This document shows positions 22,838-34,435 of a stretch of 64,000 nt of DNA, in pieces (position 1 is the stretch's first letter; the number at the start of each line of letters is the position of its first letter). A program made the translations under genes and the position numbers. Location of the stretch: the NCBI RefSeq assembly GCF_002970935.1, contig NZ_CP027194.1, forward strand, positions 1,178,001 through 1,242,000, read 5' to 3'. The DNA comes from Lactobacillus sp. CBA3606 (GTDB taxonomy: Bacteria > Bacillota > Bacilli > Lactobacillales > Lactobacillaceae). The notes below the pieces were generated by a model, which saw only the letters and a program-made list of their open reading frames with translations, was not told the origin of the DNA and searched no databases.

Positions 22838-25800
22838 CTATTTACCAGCTTTCATCTGGATTGGTGCCGTTGTTGGTTCTTGGAGATTGCGCTTTTTAAG
22901 TAGGACCATTGACCCCCAAAGAAGGACCAAGGCACCAATTGTAAAGCTTAGTAACATGATAATTGAGGAGACATAGGTACTGCTGCCCCAACCACCGGTA
23001 ATTGATTGCCGGAATGCTAAGATGGAATAAGTCAATGGAAGATATGGATGAATCGCATTGAAGAACGAGTTCGTGATTTCCATTGGGAACGTCCCACCAG
23101 AACCACCTAGTTGCAACATTAGCAAGACCATCGCTAAGAAACGCCCAGGATTATCCAACAGCATCGACAAGAACATGACGATAAACATTGAGGCTAACGC
23201 AATCATAATTGCCGTGGTAAAGTAACCCACCATACTAATTGGTTTTAACCCCACAATTAACAACGCAATACATTCGATAATCGCCATTAAGACGGCCACT
23301 GGTGCGCCGACTGCAATTTTACTAAAGAACCATTGCGTCGCAGTCCCATCATCATCCGCAATCCGTCGAATTGGATAAGCAAAATTAAAGACAATCGCAC
23401 CAACATAAAGCGCTAATGACAAGACATATGGTGCTAAGGCATGACCATAATTAGGGACATAACTATAATTAGAATGCGTCAATTTCGATGGCGTCGCAAA
23501 CATTTGCGCGTTTGCACTCTTCAACGGTGTTGCATTAACCGTATCGGCGCCACTTTGTAAGGATTCCGCCAAGGTCGCATTACCCTTTTTAATCTTTTTA
23601 GTGCCGCTTAATAATTTAGGTGAATTCGTATCCAATTGATCAGCACCATCAGCTAATTGTTGCACGCCGTCAGTCAATTGGCCGGTACTCCCTTGTAAAG
23701 TCTGTAGCCCAGTATTTAATTGACTTGCCCCAGTATCCAATTGTTGGACGCCAGAAACTAAAGTTGGAACTTGGGTATTGAGCGTGTTTAAGCCGGCCGT
23801 CACCTGACTAGACCCGCCAAACAATTGCGCAACACCACTCACTAACACCGGAACTTGACTGTTCAAAGTGGTTAGCCCACCCGTGACTTGATCAGAACCA
23901 GCAGTGACTTGATTAGAGCCGGCAAATAATTGTGCAACACCCGCAACTAACGTTGGCACTTGGGTATTAAGTTGCGCATTACCAGCAGCAATTTGGCTGG
24001 CACCGCTGTTCAAGGCAGCTGAATTAGACGCCACCGTCTGGGCACCTGTGCTTAACTGACTAATTGCGCCAGTCAAGGCAGGAACAGCCCCATTAACGGC
24101 TGTCAAGCCATAGTTCAATCGACCGGCACCCGTGTTAAGTGCTGCATTTTGGGCCGTCAAAGTTTGGGTGCCCACCGTTACCTTATTGGCGCCACTTGCT
24201 AAGCCATCAATCCCGCTCGTTAATGCGGGAACTTGACTGCTCAATTCCGTCATGCCGGCATTTAACTTATCGGCACTCTGCTGAAGCACGGTTAGGTAAC
24301 TTGTAATTTGACTAGAGCCTTGGCCTAAGGTATCGACTGTTTTCGTCACACCATCTAATTCTGAGACTAACGTATTAACCCCATCTTCGAGCGTTTTAAA
24401 CTCAGTCACTAAACTAGCTGATTGACTAGACGCAGTCTGTTGTAATTTAGTCATATTGGCCGTCAAAGCCTGCGCTGCTTGTGTATTTGTCGCTGATTTA
24501 GTTGTTGTCGTCGTTGATTTCACACTTGCTAAGCTGGTTTCTAGTGCTTTAACTTGGTCATCAGTTAAATGTTGTGACGTTTTCAATGCTTCAATCTTGG
24601 CATTAATTTGTTGGGTCACATCATTATCCTGACTAGTAATCGTCGTGGCTGTTAATTGATCGACATTGGCTTGCATATCATGCATAACCGTCGCCATCGC
24701 CGTCGAATTCGTAGGTTGTGAACCGGCCGCTGATTGTTGCTCGACTTGCGCCAAGGCTTTAGCCATCTGACTCATGCTAGTCTGTAAATCCTGAATTTTT
24801 TGCTTGTTTATCTCACTTGTACTAGTACTGGTAGCATAGAGCTGATTCAACCCGTTACTAATATCCTTAATACCACCGATACCCGAACTTATACCAGCTG
24901 TCCCCTTAGCCAGCGTTTTAGCCTGGGTGGGTAAACTACTTGTTTTTGTTTGTAAGCTAGCTAACCCATCACTGACTTGTTTGGCACCATCACTAGCATC
25001 CGATACCCCGTTAGTATAGGTCGTTAAGCCATTTGCTAAGGTTTTCGAACCATCATTTAATGTTTTCACGGTCGTCGATAGTTCCCCGGTTTGGCTATTT
25101 AACGTCCGGAGACCTGATGACACTTGATAGACACCATCCGTATAACTAACCAAGTTAACGGCTAGCGCCTGTGACCCATCGGCTAAGGTCACAACGCCAT
25201 CCGCCAACGTCCCCGTCTTACTATTTAACGTCTGGAGACCGTCAGTCACTTGTTTAGACCCACTCGTGACTTGACTGGAACCACTCGCTAGCTTGGTAAC
25301 GCCACTCGCTAAAGTCCCCGTCTTACCATTTAACGTTTGTAACCCCGTCGTGACTTGTCCAGAACCATCCGCTAACTTGGTTACACCACTCGCTAAGGCA
25401 CCGGTACTATCATTTAACGTATCGAGGCCCGTTTGTAAGGCACTGCCACCATTGGCTAACTTGGCAATGCCAGCCGGTAATTGCTGCACCTTGGTGTTAA
25501 GTTCCGTCGTGCCATCCTTTAAAGTATGCACACCGGTGGTATACGTCGTCAGCCCGGATTGGAGTTCGACCCCACCGTTCTTTAGTTGCGTCGCCCCATC
25601 GGCTGCTTGGCTGAAACCCTCACCGGCCGTTTTCACTTGTTTAAACATTGCTAAGGCATAAGCTTTTGTCACGGCCGCACGGACATTTTGATTCAGTTGG
25701 GTGGCCCCAGCATCACTAATCACTTTAGCAATGTAATTCAACGACGCGTTAGTCGCATAATGCAGCTTCATGGTTTGGGGCTGCTTACTAGTTACCGTCG

Positions 25801-26149
25801 TTGCATGTTGTGAAAAATTAGCCGGAATGGTCACGACCGTATAATATTTGTGCGTTGCTAACCCGTTTTTCGCCTTTTTGGCTGAAACAAAGTGCCAACC
25901 AAGTTGGTCATTTTTCTTTAGATTAGTCACTAACTGCTCACCAACCGCAAAACGCTTGCCTTGGTAGTTAACAGCTTTATCTTGATTAACCACTGCCACT
26001 GGTAACTTCTTAGTATCCCCATAAGGATCCCAAACTGAAGTTAAAAAAAACACACTGTATAAAAATGGAATTAAAATCATGACTGCAACTGAAATCCATA
26101 GAATCTTGTTATGACGAATTGATCGCCATTCCCCGCTAATCATTTTCAA
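22838..26149 (-). CDS. YhgE/Pip domain-containing membrane protein
   Basis: 1103 residues. One N-terminal membrane helix (about 13-34) and a cluster of five or six helices after residue 930, the ABC-2-like YhgE/Pip architecture. Between them is a very long extracytoplasmic region (about 170-900) of LxxG-rich repeats with a period near ten residues, such as LASGVTKLADGS and LNTQVPTLVSGV. Homologues act as phage receptors (Pip), as secretion accessory proteins (EsaA-like) or in drug resistance. Start is TTG 26149 (AGGAAGG 9 bases upstream) or ATG 26143. TetR gene is 25 bases upstream in the same transcript. Confidence 0.92.
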   Translation of the reverse strand: MKMISGEWRSIRHNKILWISVAVMILIPFLYSVFFLTSVWDPYGDTKKLPVAVVNQDKAVNYQGKRFAVGEQLVTNLKKNDQLGWHFVSAKKAKNGLATHKYYTVVTIPANFSQHATTVTSKQPQTMKLHYATNASLNYIAKVISDAGATQLNQNVRAAVTKAYALAMFKQVKTAGEGFSQAADGATQLKNGGVELQSGLTTYTTGVHTLKDGTTELNTKVQQLPAGIAKLANGGSALQTGLDTLNDSTGALASGVTKLADGSGQVTTGLQTLNGKTGTLASGVTKLASGSSQVTSGSKQVTDGLQTLNSKTGTLADGVVTLADGSQALAVNLVSYTDGVYQVSSGLRTLNSQTGELSTTVKTLNDGSKTLANGLTTYTNGVSDASDGAKQVSDGLASLQTKTSSLPTQAKTLAKGTAGISSGIGGIKDISNGLNQLYATSTSTSEINKQKIQDLQTSMSQMAKALAQVEQQSAAGSQPTNSTAMATVMHDMQANVDQLTATTITSQDNDVTQQINAKIEALKTSQHLTDDQVKALETSLASVKSTTTTTKSATNTQAAQALTANMTKLQQTASSQSASLVTEFKTLEDGVNTLVSELDGVTKTVDTLGQGSSQITSYLTVLQQSADKLNAGMTELSSQVPALTSGIDGLASGANKVTVGTQTLTAQNAALNTGAGRLNYGLTAVNGAVPALTGAISQLSTGAQTVASNSAALNSGASQIAAGNAQLNTQVPTLVAGVAQLFAGSNQVTAGSDQVTGGLTTLNSQVPVLVSGVAQLFGGSSQVTAGLNTLNTQVPTLVSGVQQLDTGASQLNTGLQTLQGSTGQLTDGVQQLADGADQLDTNSPKLLSGTKKIKKGNATLAESLQSGADTVNATPLKSANAQMFATPSKLTHSNYSYVPNYGHALAPYVLSLALYVGAIVFNFAYPIRRIADDDGTATQWFFSKIAVGAPVAVLMAIIECIALLIVGLKPISMVGYFTTAIMIALASMFIVMFLSMLLDNPGRFLAMVLLMLQLGGSGGTFPMEITNSFFNAIHPYLPLTYSILAFRQSITGGWGSSTYVSSIIMLLSFTIGALVLLWGSMVLLKKRNLQEPTTAPIQMKAGK

Positions 26150-26174: not shown

Positions 26175-26732
26175 TTAAATTGATTGTTGTTCTAGTGAGA
26201 AGAAAGTTGCCAAGGTGTGTTCAATCGCTAATTGCGTTTGCACGGACGCCCCATCAATTCCCTCACTACTGAGCCATTGCACGATACTCGTAATGGCACC
26301 ACTAACCAGATATGCCGTTAAATCTGGTTCTGCTGCGGTCCGCATCATCATGAGAACCCGATCAGTAGCCCCGGTTTGCGCAATTGTTAAAAAACAATCA
26401 TTAATGACCCGCTGCGAGCGATTATTATCGCCTTCGGTATTTGTCACCAATAAATGACGTAACACTTGCGTATGGGTCCCAATAAATTGCGCCATCACAG
26501 CGGAACCAACGGCATTTGATTGTTCCGCTGCCAGTAATTCGGCCAGCGTATGCATGACCATTTGTGCTAACAGGTTGAATTTATCCGTATAATACCGATA
26601 AAAACTACTCCGATGAATCAAAGCCTGCGTACAAATCTGCTCAACCGTAATTTGTGATATTGATCGCTGTTCTAATAATTGATACATCGCACGTTGCAAA
26701 TCCAACTCCGTACGAATAGAAATTGTAACCAC
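26175..26732 (-). CDS. TetR family transcriptional regulator
   Basis: 185 residues. N-terminal HTH (SQITVEQICTQALIHRSSFYRYYTDKFNLLAQM, about residues 24-57) with the FYRYYTDK of the TetR family; the divergent C-terminal domain binds an unknown ligand. Likely represses itself and the YhgE/Pip gene that follows. The start is poorly defined: GTG 26732 lies close to the G-rich site. Upstream sits a 24-bp near-perfect palindrome also found before the ArsR gene. Confidence 0.88.
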   Translation of the reverse strand: MVTISIRTELDLQRAMYQLLEQRSISQITVEQICTQALIHRSSFYRYYTDKFNLLAQMVMHTLAELLAAEQSNAVGSAVMAQFIGTHTQVLRHLLVTNTEGDNNRSQRVINDCFLTIAQTGATDRVLMMMRTAAEPDLTAYLVSGAITSIVQWLSSEGIDGASVQTQLAIEHTLATFFSLEQQSI

Positions 26733-26816: not shown

Positions 26817-27146
26817 TTACTGTAAATATGGCTTTTGCTTCAAATCTTCCCGTAACGTATGAATTAAATGTTCGACTTTAGTTAGTGGACCGTCAAAAGT
26901 CACGTGATAATAATTACGTGTCCCCTGCCGTTCAACACTGACAAAATGATGATCTTTTAACGCCTTAAGTTGATGGGAAACGGCTGGTTGTGAAATTTGC
27001 ATAATTTTAGTCAACTCACCAACTGTTAATCCCTTAGCATGCTGCGTTAACTCAATCATGATCTGCTGTCGGCGTTCGTCCGCCAGCACTTCAAAAATCG
27101 GAATTGTCTCGCGGAACTCTTTCAGTGCCGCCTCGTTTCGGTCCAT
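26817..27146 (-). CDS. ArsR family transcriptional regulator
   Basis: 109 residues. Winged helix with the core VLADERRQQIMIELTQHAKGLTVGELTKIMQISQPAVSHQLKALKDHHFVSVERQGTRNYYHV. None of the usual metal-binding Cys pairs of ArsR/CadC/CzrA is present, so it may sense something other than a soft metal. Start ATG 27146 has GAAAGGGG 8 bases upstream; a longer frame to 27176 would overlap the operator. Divergent from a small membrane protein gene and upstream of tetR-yhgE. Confidence 0.9.
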   Translation of the reverse strand: MDRNEAALKEFRETIPIFEVLADERRQQIMIELTQHAKGLTVGELTKIMQISQPAVSHQLKALKDHHFVSVERQGTRNYYHVTFDGPLTKVEHLIHTLREDLKQKPYLQ

Positions 27147-27186: not shown

Positions 27187-27282
27187 GTATCAATGTTAAC
27201 CCGAATCAATCATTTTTGCAACACTTCATTTAAATTGTCTGATTCTAAAACAACTCCTGATAATTGCGCTGTTTATTAGCAA

Positions 27283-27328: not shown

Positions 27329-27592
27329 ATGAAACCATTACGTCAAGATGCTATTATTCAACGTTTATTACTCGTCACCGGGGTTTGGCTGATTGTACAA
27401 CTCATCCTACTCCCTTATACCTTGCATCAAAATGATACCGTATTACTTTTTTCCAGCTTTGCATTACTCGCCATTATGGTCGGTATTTTAGGGTTCGATA
27501 GTTATCGTGCTTGGAAACAACGCCTGAACTGGGCCTTTGCTGGCATTGATCTGCTACTTTTAATCGTCATCGCGAGCTTACTATTATGGTGA
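27329..27592 (+). CDS. small membrane protein with three TM segments
   Basis: 87 residues with three hydrophobic helices (about 12-28, 37-55 and 68-87). No recognised family. A near-ideal TTAGGAGGTG ribosome site precedes ATG 27329. Divergent from arsR; a cre-like site upstream hints at carbon catabolite control. Convergent with the PTS gene, with which it shares a terminator. Confidence 0.75.
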   Translation: MKPLRQDAIIQRLLLVTGVWLIVQLILLPYTLHQNDTVLLFSSFALLAIMVGILGFDSYRAWKQRLNWAFAGIDLLLLIVIASLLLW

Positions 27593-27686: not shown

Positions 27687-28931
27687 CTATTCTACTTTAG
27701 TTGCCGTGACTTCTTTAGTTAACATCTGTTGTTCAGCGACTTTGAAGAATGGATAATAAGCCGCACCGGCGATGACCAGTTCAATCGCTGACCAAACAGC
27801 GGCCCGCCAATCCCAACCAGTGGCCATTAGCGGTCCGATAATTGGGGGCATTGTCCAAGGAACCATCGCAACTGGGGCTGAAATCCAGCCAATGGCAATC
27901 AAGAGATACGACAAAGTAGCCAATACTAACGGCACAACGATAAATGGAATCATCGTGATGGCATTCATCACAATCGGGAACCCGAATATAACGGGTTCAT
28001 TAATTTCAAATAAGGCACTTGGAAAAGCGACTTTACCTAGGTCCCGATAAGTTTTGCTCCGCGAAAACAGCATTAAAGCGACTAAGGTAATCGTTGCACC
28101 GGTCCCGCCAACATTAACATAAAGGCTTGAAAAACCAGCAGCGGTCACATATGGTAAGGGCTGATGATGTGCCAAAGCAGTACCGTTGGCCGCTAAAAAT
28201 TGTAAGAAAATCGGGTCGGCAATCCCTTCTAGTGTCATATCACCATGAATCCCGCAAACCCACAATAGACTAACCAGTAAGGTATAAACCAGAATTCCTG
28301 GTAACGTATTCATAGCGAATAGTAATGGATGAAAAATTGTCTGGACAATCTGATTAATATCAATGTGTAGCGGCATCCGTACAACCCAGAATAATACTAA
28401 AATAACAAATCCTGGGAAAAGGGCAACGAATGAATTAGAAACTGCCGTGGGAACTCCGGCTGGCAATTTGATGACAATGTTGCGTTTAACAAAGAAATTA
28501 AAAATAGATACGGCAATAAATGCCGTAATAATGGCAGTAAATAAACCCGATGAAGCGAAGTTGGCTGTATCTAAGGTAAACTTATCATTAAAGGAACTGA
28601 TAATAAACGCCATAGTTGCCAAGCCAGCACCTGATAACGGGTCTATTTCAAGCGCTTTAGAAAGTTCATAACCAATACCAATGACAGCTAACAACGAAAT
28701 AATGCCAAATGAGCCATTAACCGCAACTCCAATCATATTAGTATATGGCTTAATAAAATTAGTCCACGCCGCAATTGGAATATTTCCAATAATTAGGAAA
28801 ACACTCCCACTAATAATGGCCGGTAAAGTGAGTACTAACCCATTCCGGACCGACACTAAATATTTATTATTCCCCACTTTAGCCATCGGTGGCATCAACG
28901 TATTTTGAAGCCAATCCATAAAATGTTGCAT
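27687..28931 (-). CDS. PTS sugar transporter subunit IIC, cellobiose/lactose (Lac) family
   Basis: 414 residues with about ten membrane helices; the phrases GNNKYLVSVRNGLVLTLPAIISGS, NPVIFGFPIVMNAI-type (here EINEPVIFGFPIVMN) and PWTMPPIIGPLMATGWDWRAAVW are diagnostic of EIIC of the Lac/Cel family (TIGR00410). It lacks EIIA and EIIB neighbours, so it must borrow them from elsewhere. Start ATG 28931 has GAGGAGGG 6 bases upstream. Substrate probably a beta-glucoside, cellobiose or related disaccharide. The terminator of a possible sRNA lies 220 bases upstream. Confidence 0.93.
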   Translation of the reverse strand: MQHFMDWLQNTLMPPMAKVGNNKYLVSVRNGLVLTLPAIISGSVFLIIGNIPIAAWTNFIKPYTNMIGVAVNGSFGIISLLAVIGIGYELSKALEIDPLSGAGLATMAFIISSFNDKFTLDTANFASSGLFTAIITAFIAVSIFNFFVKRNIVIKLPAGVPTAVSNSFVALFPGFVILVLFWVVRMPLHIDINQIVQTIFHPLLFAMNTLPGILVYTLLVSLLWVCGIHGDMTLEGIADPIFLQFLAANGTALAHHQPLPYVTAAGFSSLYVNVGGTGATITLVALMLFSRSKTYRDLGKVAFPSALFEINEPVIFGFPIVMNAITMIPFIVVPLVLATLSYLLIAIGWISAPVAMVPWTMPPIIGPLMATGWDWRAAVWSAIELVIAGAAYYPFFKVAEQQMLTKEVTATKVE

Positions 28932-28960
28932 CTGAATCCCTCCTCTATAATGGCTTAAGC

Positions 28961-29133
28961 GTAAGGGTCTCACCGGCTACTGTAAACCCTTACATTTCGT
29001 GATAAACCTATACCTATCGTTAGACTAACGTAGACCAAATTCCGCACAAGTAATTGGTACCTACAAATTTTCAGCAGACCTCATTATGTGAGCATCATTA
29101 GGATAACCTAGAACTTTTTTTACTTACCCTTAC
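28961..29133. promoter_or_regulatory. three copies of ACCCTTAC upstream of the PTS EIIC gene
   Basis: GTAAGGGT at 28961-28968 and ACCCTTAC at 28986-28993 form an inverted pair; a third ACCCTTAC is at 29126-29133. A separate perfect dyad, CGTTAG-A-CTAACG, lies at 29018-29030. Likely regulator sites for the PTS gene; identity unknown. Confidence 0.4.
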
Positions 29134-29152
29134 AGATCACTAATTTGACCAA

Positions 29153-29290
29153 CAAAAAAACGCCTAACCAATTAGTCAGACGTTCCAAGGGGATCGTACA
29201 ATCACACGATCGTATCACAATCACTGGTTGGGAGACCACTGATTGCTATGGAAAAGCCACTAGTCGTTCTGGGAAGGATTAACTAGTGAT
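29153..29290 (-). ncRNA. candidate small RNA with three UCCC motifs
   Basis: About 135 nt on the minus strand, no ORF or start codon with a ribosome site. A TTGACA -35 (29317-29322) with a weaker TAAATC -10 at 17-bp spacing precedes it. Helices: CACTAGT/ACTAGTG; a 10-bp arm AATCAGTGGT/ACCAGTGATT closed by the loop CUCCCA; GATCGT/ACGATC; then an intrinsic terminator AACGTCTGAC / GGTTAGGCGTT with T7. UCCC lies in loop 1 (CCUUCCCAG), in loop 2 and between helix 3 and the terminator (AUCCCC). C-rich loops in Firmicute sRNAs such as LhrC or RsaE pair with ribosome sites. Confidence 0.6.
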
Positions 29291-29553
29291 TGAGATTTAG
29301 ATTGTTAAGCGCTACTTGTCAATATAAAATAAAACGAATAAATTGCTATTAACGGCGGTAAGCAACGCTATGTCTAATAGTATAAACGCATTTTAAAACT
29401 TGACCAGCATCGATTCAACCAGTCTGTCGCGGAATACGACAATTTTCATAAATTGTCTTTCCAACGCAATTGAGGATTGCTGTTTTATCGCCAATGGCAG
29501 CGGTTAATGCTACAATCAATTTGTTACCATTAATCTATCTTGGAGATGACTTG

Positions 29554-30021
29554 ATGCAATCACAACTTTACCCTTATCTCACTTTTGAAAACGCCAAGAC
29601 AGCCATTGCTTACTATCAACGGGTCTTTGGTGCCACTGACATTTATCGCCTTAGTCCTAAGCCTGAACAAGCGCAACAATTTGGCCTGCCCGCTGACGCC
29701 GACCTCAATAATCTCACCATGCACGCTGGCTTTTCAATTCTAGGGACTAAATTTGAATGTGCGGATGCCTTTCAAGGAACGCCTAAACCGTCCGCACAAA
29801 TTACGCTCATGTTGGATATTAATAGTGAAGATGCGGCTAGTGCCCAAGCAGCGACTGCCTTTTATCAACGGCTCGTTGATTCCGGTGAAGTCACCATCAC
29901 CATGCCATTTGAAACGCAGTTCTGGGGTGGTAAAATGGGCCAATTCACGGATGCTTTTGGCATTACTTGGATGTTACACACATCGCCTTGGTCAATTGCC
30001 GCTGACCATCAACCCTCATAG
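29554..30021 (+). CDS. VOC family protein, PhnB-like
   Basis: 155 residues of glyoxalase/bleomycin-resistance fold. YPYLTFENAKTAIAYYQRVFGATDIYRLS and the C-terminal WGGKMGQFTDAFGITWMLH are typical of the PhnB/YjdN-like (3-demethylubiquinone methyltransferase-like) group. The start is ATG 29554, with GGAG 8 bases in front; a longer frame from 29470 has no ribosome site. Metal and substrate unknown. Terminator follows. Confidence 0.88.
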   Translation: MQSQLYPYLTFENAKTAIAYYQRVFGATDIYRLSPKPEQAQQFGLPADADLNNLTMHAGFSILGTKFECADAFQGTPKPSAQITLMLDINSEDAASAQAATAFYQRLVDSGEVTITMPFETQFWGGKMGQFTDAFGITWMLHTSPWSIAADHQPS

Positions 30022-32823: not shown

Positions 32824-34329
32824 TTAGTTCAGATGATGCTTTATATTCAAGCTATGTTGGCGTCGGCGGCCAACGCGGGACTGCCGAAAACCGAATACAT
32901 TGATGACTAAACCTAACACCAGTAACCCGAAAGCCAACCCCATAATGTGATGCAAGCCTGTATATAAGATTGCCCGCATCGCAGGTATCAACTGTACCGG
33001 TAACGTTCGCGCACTGGTCGCATCACTCAACTGATTCAACATCGTCATGGTGATGTTGCCATGTGCTTGCCGGACCCCCGTCGTTAATGCTTGGTTTAAG
33101 ACGACACTATAGATCGACGCCATAAAAGTCTGCCCTAGCATCCGCACCAACAGACTAAACGACGTCGCAATCGGCACATCGCGGTGTGCCGCCTGTTGTT
33201 GCACGCTCACTTGCAAAACTGTAAAACAAATCCCAATTCCGGCCCCTTGAAAGGCACCGGCTAGCAACAACCACCCATAACTCGTGTGCGCACTTGCTAC
33301 CACCAACAGCCCACATGAGATTAGCAAACTGGTAAAGCCAATCATGACAATCCGCCGTGTCGACCAGTTACGATCTAAGTTGGAACTCCATTGTGCACCC
33401 ATAAAGTTCGTAATTGATCCCGGAATCTGGGTCACACCACCGATCACTGCAGTGGTACCTAATAACCCTTGCGCCCACATTGGCACGTAAACGTTGAAGC
33501 CCACAAAGAAACCATAAATTAAAAAGAACATCCCAAAAGCTGCCACTAAATACCGGTTTTTAAATAAACGACTCGGAATAATCGGATCACTGGCCCGCCG
33601 TTCAACCACCAATAAGGCCCCTAATAGGCCAACCGCCAGGACTAGAATCAAGCCCACCCCCAAAGGGGCAATTTTACCGATCATTTCAATACCAACCAGT
33701 AGACTCACTAACCCACTCGTTAAACACATGGCACCTAAATAATCGACTTTCAAATGTGTTGCCGTGAGCTTAGGCGCTTGGTACAACCAATGAATGATTG
33801 CAATCGAAGCGAGACCAATTGGCACATTAATATAGAAGACCCAGTGCCAACCAAAGTTATCCACAATAAAGCCACCCACTAAGGGTCCAATAATTGCAGC
33901 GGTACTAAAACTGGCAGTAACATACCCAAATACCTTACCGCGTTTGACCGGATCTTGATAAATTTCCGCATAAATAATATACGGAATCGCAGTCATCCCC
34001 CCACTGCCGACCCCCATTACGGTCCGGGCAATAATCAGAAAGATAATATTAGGCGCTAAGCCTTCCAGCAAAGCCCCCAAAACAAAAATCAATGTTGAAA
34101 TCTGATACGCCCGTTTATTACCTACCCGCTCGCCAAACTTACTCCAAAGTGGCGTGGTTACGGCACCCCCTAATAAAAACACCGCAACAATCCACCCCAT
34201 GAGCTGAATCCCATGTAAATCACTAATAATTGCCGGTAACGCTGTACTAATAATGGTACTGTCCAAGCCATTCATCGCATTGGACAGCAGTAATGCAATC
34301 GTCACAATCATAACTACCCTTTTTGACAC
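32824..34329 (-). CDS. MFS transporter, DHA2 (EmrB/QacA) family
   Basis: 501 residues with fourteen membrane helices. Motif A (WSKFGERVGNKRAYQ), motif C-like glycines and the characteristic opening ALLLSNAMNGLDSTIISTALPAI mark the drug:H+ antiporter-2 family. A multidrug exporter is likely. The GTG at 34329 has GGGAGG 7 bases upstream; the in-frame TTG at 34344 lies before that site. It is not clear that it shares a transcript with the downstream dehydrogenase, which has its own promoter. A perfect TTATCCACA at 33857-33865 lies inside it, a lone match. Confidence 0.92.
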   Translation of the reverse strand: MSKRVVMIVTIALLLSNAMNGLDSTIISTALPAIISDLHGIQLMGWIVAVFLLGGAVTTPLWSKFGERVGNKRAYQISTLIFVLGALLEGLAPNIIFLIIARTVMGVGSGGMTAIPYIIYAEIYQDPVKRGKVFGYVTASFSTAAIIGPLVGGFIVDNFGWHWVFYINVPIGLASIAIIHWLYQAPKLTATHLKVDYLGAMCLTSGLVSLLVGIEMIGKIAPLGVGLILVLAVGLLGALLVVERRASDPIIPSRLFKNRYLVAAFGMFFLIYGFFVGFNVYVPMWAQGLLGTTAVIGGVTQIPGSITNFMGAQWSSNLDRNWSTRRIVMIGFTSLLISCGLLVVASAHTSYGWLLLAGAFQGAGIGICFTVLQVSVQQQAAHRDVPIATSFSLLVRMLGQTFMASIYSVVLNQALTTGVRQAHGNITMTMLNQLSDATSARTLPVQLIPAMRAILYTGLHHIMGLAFGLLVLGLVINVFGFRQSRVGRRRQHSLNIKHHLN

Positions 34330-34435
34330 CGAACTGCCTCCCAAAATAAATTAAAAATAATTCTAAAATAACCCATTGCTTTTAGGTTACACTATTTTAG
34401 CGTCAGGAGCCATCACGTTTTCTGAAAACTAAGCG

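Follow-up and report, generated by a model that had tools for sequence, protein, structure and literature searches.

Does the minus strand around 29153-29290 of the window, i.e., the whole stretch of 64,000 nucleotides analyzed here, encode a regulatory RNA in its own right, and if so, of which kind and by which mode could it act? A sequence-only reading had proposed a candidate sRNA of four helices in 138 nt with three exposed UCCC motifs and a design like that of LhrC or RsaE. The source strain was compared with its same-genus relatives, the genus name Lactiplantibacillus being deduced from named close relatives of the neighboring PTS protein. Lactiplantibacillus species are food and gut bacteria for which few regulatory RNAs appear in the literature searched, and the titles and abstracts of a partial collection on this genus describe no such RNA.

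A DNA search for homologues within the genus resulted in an alignment of 15 sequences (A2), from which the covariance model R1 was built. R1 gave full-length matches of 83 to 231 bits in all 21 Lactiplantibacillus species, with one copy each at the same locus, and its positions 1-220 align end to end with the gene listed in Table 1 as well as in the 20 other species. Among about 286 other Lactobacillaceae, the model found no credible copy (best score 21 bits, five weak matches), nor did it find one in some 244 further genomes from the order, a set partly overlapping the former (best scores 27 and 25 bits; the 27-bit match turned out to be a terminator look-alike on inspection). The sRNA gene thus belongs to the core of the genus and, as far as tested, is restricted to it. 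Several further matches were discarded: the weak second R1 matches in L071 and L072 and a weak match in L119 reflect chance resemblance to a stem or terminator, and BLAST matches covering only the terminator (L016-L023) belong to terminators of unrelated genes. A repeat or mobile element was ruled out as well, with a single copy in the 2.56 Mb genome and no match in plasmids or phages.

The homologues also share their surroundings. A nuclease gene adjoins each of them on one side, with or without a glyoxalase-like gene in between, and a cluster of a small ORF, ArsR, and TetR genes lies near the other side wherever the available sequence extends that far; in L061, L062, and L068, the downstream side differs. 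Convergent to the sRNA is an ORF of 87 amino acids without Pfam match (27329-27592), which is kept in many relatives and missing in others. A further observation concerns contig C4 of the same genome as L071, probably a plasmid, where a match to the Bacillus-plasmid RNA family of Rfam (RF01691; 62.5 bits, L071:1944-2004) was noted.

The RNA is predicted to be highly structured. Already the minus-strand fold of 29153-29290 reaches -45.7 kcal/mol, compared with -29.2 +/- 3.6 kcal/mol for shuffled sequences (z -4.57; 0/200 as good), in line with the four helices described earlier. In the alignment of all 21 sequences, 94.9% of the helix cells pair, vs. 24-47% with slid partners, and both partners have changed in 22 of the 47 pairs. 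The covariation score reaches 0.396, whereas shuffled alignments give 0.231 and slid partners no more than 0.130. A MAFFT alignment, which was not fitted to the model, likewise yielded 95.7% of pairing cells and 15 pairs with double changes. Helix P1 has 97.9 and 100% of cells paired and five doubly changed pairs; P3 has the lowest share among the helices (80.7%). The postulated terminator with its run of seven T was also recovered by the terminator scan.

An alternative partner for the 3' part of P4 exists in several species, namely the P1-P2 junction (29190-29311). Duplexes between the two segments are more stable within species than between species (-6.5 vs. -5.3 kcal/mol; 0/5000 permutations as good), in a test that is inflated by relatedness and includes some species without the junction. 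This pairing may represent a conformational alternative and is considered here as a lead only.

Table 1. Predicted features of the sRNA gene and its neighborhood (positions in the window).
Feature	Coordinates	Strand	Remarks
sRNA gene	29154..29372	-	likely transcript ~216 nt; start near 29372, end ~29157-29154
Operator-like element GACA-N12-TGTC-N9-GACA	29425..29457	-	~18 bp upstream of the -35; three half-sites
-35-like CTGGTC (weak)	29402..29407	-	relatives have CTGGCA or CTAGCA; spacing to the -10 17 bp
-10 box TATACT	29379..29384	-	invariant in 21/21 species
Helix P1	29308..29369	-	10 + 6-7 bp; bulge ACCGCC at 29359-29354; missed in the sequence-only reading
Hairpin P2	29257..29289	-	loop 1 CCUUCCCAG at 29277-29269; 95.4% paired, 3 pairs double-changed
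Unpaired linker UUUUCCAUA	29247..29255	-	between P2 and P3; identical in 20/21 species
Hairpin P3	29217..29246	-	loop 2 CUCCCA at 29234-29229; double changes in 5/6 pairs
Hairpin P4	29192..29211	-	93.7% of cells paired, no double change
AUCCCC (supposed third UCCC)	29189..29194	-	UCCC only in the source species and G001; ACCCU elsewhere
Intrinsic terminator	29154..29186	-	13-bp stem + 7 T; 9/12 pairs double-changed; terminator scan agrees
PTS EIIC gene	27687..28931	-	outside the sRNA unit
Second copy of the operator-like element	27220..27252	-	in the ArsR-TetR operon promoter; other direction TGTY-N9-GACA-N12-TGTY
ArsR-family regulator gene	26817..27146	-	Pfam HTH_5
TetR-type regulator gene	26175..26732	-	TetR_N E 1.4e-4, just under the cut-off; candidate binder of the shared element

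The 5' end had to be revised. The TTGACA hexamer at 29321-29316, previously taken as promoter, is accompanied only by a weak -10, reads TTAGCA or TTAACA in homologues with pairing kept, and forms the 3' arm of the conserved helix P1 by pairing with GUUAAU. The invariant TATACT at 29384-29379, and not TTGACA, is likely the -10 of the sRNA; together with the -35-like hexamer, it is followed in all relatives by the conserved sequence CATAGCGUUGCUUAACCGCCGUUAAU, the last part of which forms P1. Because this conserved promoter sits 63 bp upstream of TTGACA, we infer five hairpins and a length of about 216 nt for the RNA, whose first quarter the earlier proposal had missed. An RNA of only about 135 nt starting from TTGACA at 29321, be it a primary transcript, the product of a second promoter or a processing product, would fit the perfect -35 hexamer in the source species and the fact that RsaE is known in a 5'-processed form (PMC6435200). 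Nevertheless, the hexamer is unconserved and forms a stem arm, the promoter scan detected no pair of promoter-like boxes at this site of the minus strand, and the invariant TATACT lies further upstream, so that we regard a shorter form as improbable.

Two further readings were considered. If the RNA encoded a small protein, either solely or as a dual-function RNA, it could draw on short ORFs of 12-40 codons present in some species, but no start, position or length is common across species, and the substitutions track base pairing instead of codons. Consistent with the earlier statement that the region is non-coding, no ORF of at least 50 amino acids exists on its minus strand and no small ORF is common to the 21 homologues; a coding role is accordingly highly improbable. 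The other reading, a cis-acting leader or attenuator of the downstream gene, is suggested by the shared strand with the PTS gene here and with ArsR in species lacking the intervening small gene. However, the PTS gene follows the sRNA only in the source species and is absent from the locus in relatives, including the nearest one (G001), in which the gene downstream is convergent, a layout shared by several other species. Since relatives keep the sRNA without the PTS gene and G001 and others have a convergent gene in its place, a role as PTS leader is excluded, which also settles the objection, raised along with the original proposal, that the RNA could be merely such a leader; the PTS gene has been added in the source species or its lineage. 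In some species, ArsR is next downstream on the same strand as the sRNA, but it has its own promoter and operator. Furthermore, the terminator is always present without any sign of an antiterminator, and a constant association with one downstream gene is not seen. A cis-acting leader is therefore largely refuted and retains only a marginal probability. When the 40 leaders of the window are ordered by their pairing with the sRNA loops, the PTS leader comes only 10th. Within this leader, an inverted repeat (GTAAGGGT...ACCCTTAC) was noted around 28993-28961.

The existence of a stand-alone structured RNA at this locus can be regarded as close to certain. The comparison moreover strongly supports a stand-alone regulatory RNA of no known family, because it is found in synteny in 21/21 species, carries compensatory changes, features its own promoter and terminator, and lacks any Rfam match. 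In Rfam, no match was obtained in the window at gathering score, none in 28900-29600 even with E values of up to 5, and seven relatives likewise lack a match at gathering score, which confirms the initial impression that the RNA does not obviously match a known family.

A further feature of the RNA is its set of C-rich unpaired motifs. Loop 1 has UUCCCA in 21/21 species; loop 2 has UCCCA in 20/21, with L070 carrying UUCUUA instead. Two of the three exposed UCCC motifs initially described are thereby conserved, whereas the third is confined to the source species and G001, and its first bases fall within the P4 stem. Besides the loops, the ACCGCC bulge of P1 and the linker between P2 and P3 are near-invariant. 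Mean unpaired probabilities of the five motifs amount to 0.95 (bulge), 0.87 (loop 1), 0.68 (linker UUUUCCAUA), 0.94 (loop 2), and 0.83, compared with 0.40 for the whole RNA. The most rigid element of the RNA is CUUAACCGCCGUUAAU, which is not a UCCC motif and for this reason may have a role in binding a protein.

The UCCC loops of LhrC have been proven to bind targets by pairing with ribosome sites (PMC4132741), the same has been proven for the C-rich motifs of RsaE (PMC6435200), and UCCC occurs in 48% of the bona fide sRNAs of S. aureus (PMC5826253). LhrC1-5 of Listeria resembles the RNA described here as a stand-alone sRNA with more than one CU-rich UCCC site, located in loops and in a single-stranded stretch, its own terminator, and a regulated promoter (PMC4132741). 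In contrast, LhrC comprises 111-114 nt in five near-identical copies under control of LisRK (PMC4132741), vs. about 216 nt and one copy here, has three UCCC sites where only two are conserved in our sRNA and the third is found in two species, and differs in fold, sequence, and upstream element; a scan of all Rfam families matched the sRNA to none of the covariance models, LhrC included. RsaE/RoxS of Staphylococcus and Bacillus shares unpaired C-rich motifs, the single gene, and the near-invariant motif sequence (PMC6435200, PMC5826253). It is, however, only about 100 nt long and conserved across distant Firmicutes, whereas the sRNA has no copy outside the genus in the about 286 and 244 genomes searched, and neither an Rfam RsaE match nor conservation across Firmicutes was found for it. 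Similarly, RsaC, SprD, and other UCCC-type sRNAs of S. aureus expose UCCC, frequently more than once, in their unpaired parts (PMC5826253, PMC4132741), but no relation in sequence or structure was found to the sRNA with its own five-hairpin architecture. With respect to the functional class of UCCC-type trans-acting sRNAs, the sRNA is, as judged by sequence comparison alone, a stand-alone gene with its own promoter and terminator, and it exposes conserved UCCC in its loops. The LhrC/RsaE-like label hence holds as an analogy of design and fails as family membership, given the lack of an Rfam match and the different length, copy number, and UCCC count. The best reading is a real and new family within a known kind of RNA, resembling LhrC and RsaE in its presumed working and belonging to neither. 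The UCCC design would then extend to a new genus, and this single-copy RNA in all 21 species tested would provide a new family for which a calibrated model, predicted ends, and short invariant motifs are at hand, along with an operator-like element that is shared.

As a whole, the data are best explained by a single-copy, trans-acting sRNA of the genus core with about 216 nt and ribosome-site pairing, which we consider reasonably probable; the anti-Shine-Dalgarno mode itself, based on analogy, is favored with nearly the same confidence. Here, the loops CCUUCCCA and CUCCCA would pair with G-rich Shine-Dalgarno regions, probably with assistance from ACCCU, from the linker UUUUCCAUA, and from ACCGCC in the bulge, and this pairing could lower the translation of a set of mRNAs. 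The link to envelope stress mentioned in the sequence-only reading finds no support in these data. Target searches did not bring out any particular mRNAs. The loop-2 complement UUGGGAG occurs at 34 genome sites 3-10 nt before ATG, 12 of these starts having long ORFs, and is not enriched among Shine-Dalgarno-like WWGGGAG sites (22/93, vs. 43 for AAGGGAG); the loop-1 complement gave five sites, none of them convincing. Among five leaders compared without a neutral baseline, UUGGGAG is kept in 19/19 species for glyQ, 16/20 for rpoN, 7/18 for pepV, 10/19 for L097, and 0/20 for clpB (the names glyQ and rpoN were assigned by reading the protein sequences). Within the window, the leader of an MFS transporter gene (TTTTGGGAGGCAG, 34329-34344) is complementary to loop 2 and ranks third best of 40.

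6S and CsrB-type RNAs act through protein binding, by sequestration or as scaffold. An RNA acting mainly in this way, with the C-rich loops and the ACCGCC bulge as protein contacts, could account for the extreme conservation of primary sequence over five separate unpaired sites, for a bulge and linker unlike anti-Shine-Dalgarno seeds, and for the fact that no target class stood out. Yet the motifs differ among themselves, as opposed to CsrB-type RNAs, in which one and the same motif recurs, and UUCCCA and CUCCCA match experimentally proven seeds of other Gram-positive sRNAs; protein binding as the main mode is thus rather unlikely. Doubtful as a whole is a local circuit in which one locus-specific regulator controls the sRNA and the ArsR-TetR operon via a shared three-half-site operator absent elsewhere from the genome, while the five near-invariant motifs (one of them in the bulge) bind several partners and a switch between P4 and the long-range helix is possible.

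Transcription of the sRNA is probably set by a regulator binding the three-half-site element upstream of the promoter, which would also control the neighboring ArsR-TetR operon. Nearly all species have the element upstream of their sRNA gene, a few of them in a slightly deviating form, and it is also present where the divergent glyoxalase-like (VOC) gene is absent; at up to one mismatch, 0.13 occurrences would be expected in the window. Together with the copy in the operon promoter, it forms the only pair of sites with zero or one mismatch to their joint pattern in the 2.56 Mb genome. As both sites served to define the pattern, their perfect match is given by construction and the absence of others is the informative part; two-mismatch sites elsewhere in the genome were no more frequent than in the reversed control. 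Furthermore, the ArsR promoter carries the element within one mismatch (spacing 12 or 13) in 13 of 15 related and hence non-independent species, compared with 0.3% of shuffles. A locus-specific regulator likely acts on this shared element. Next to the ArsR start lies a separate ATTCNAATATTNGAAT palindrome, which we take to resemble known ArsR operators. Since ArsR itself probably uses this palindrome, the TetR-type protein encoded in the same operon would be the first candidate for the shared element. The ArsR and TetR genes are followed by a gene for an ABC-2 type membrane protein of 1103 amino acids (22838-26149), which has a long repetitive middle part and resembles phage infection proteins.
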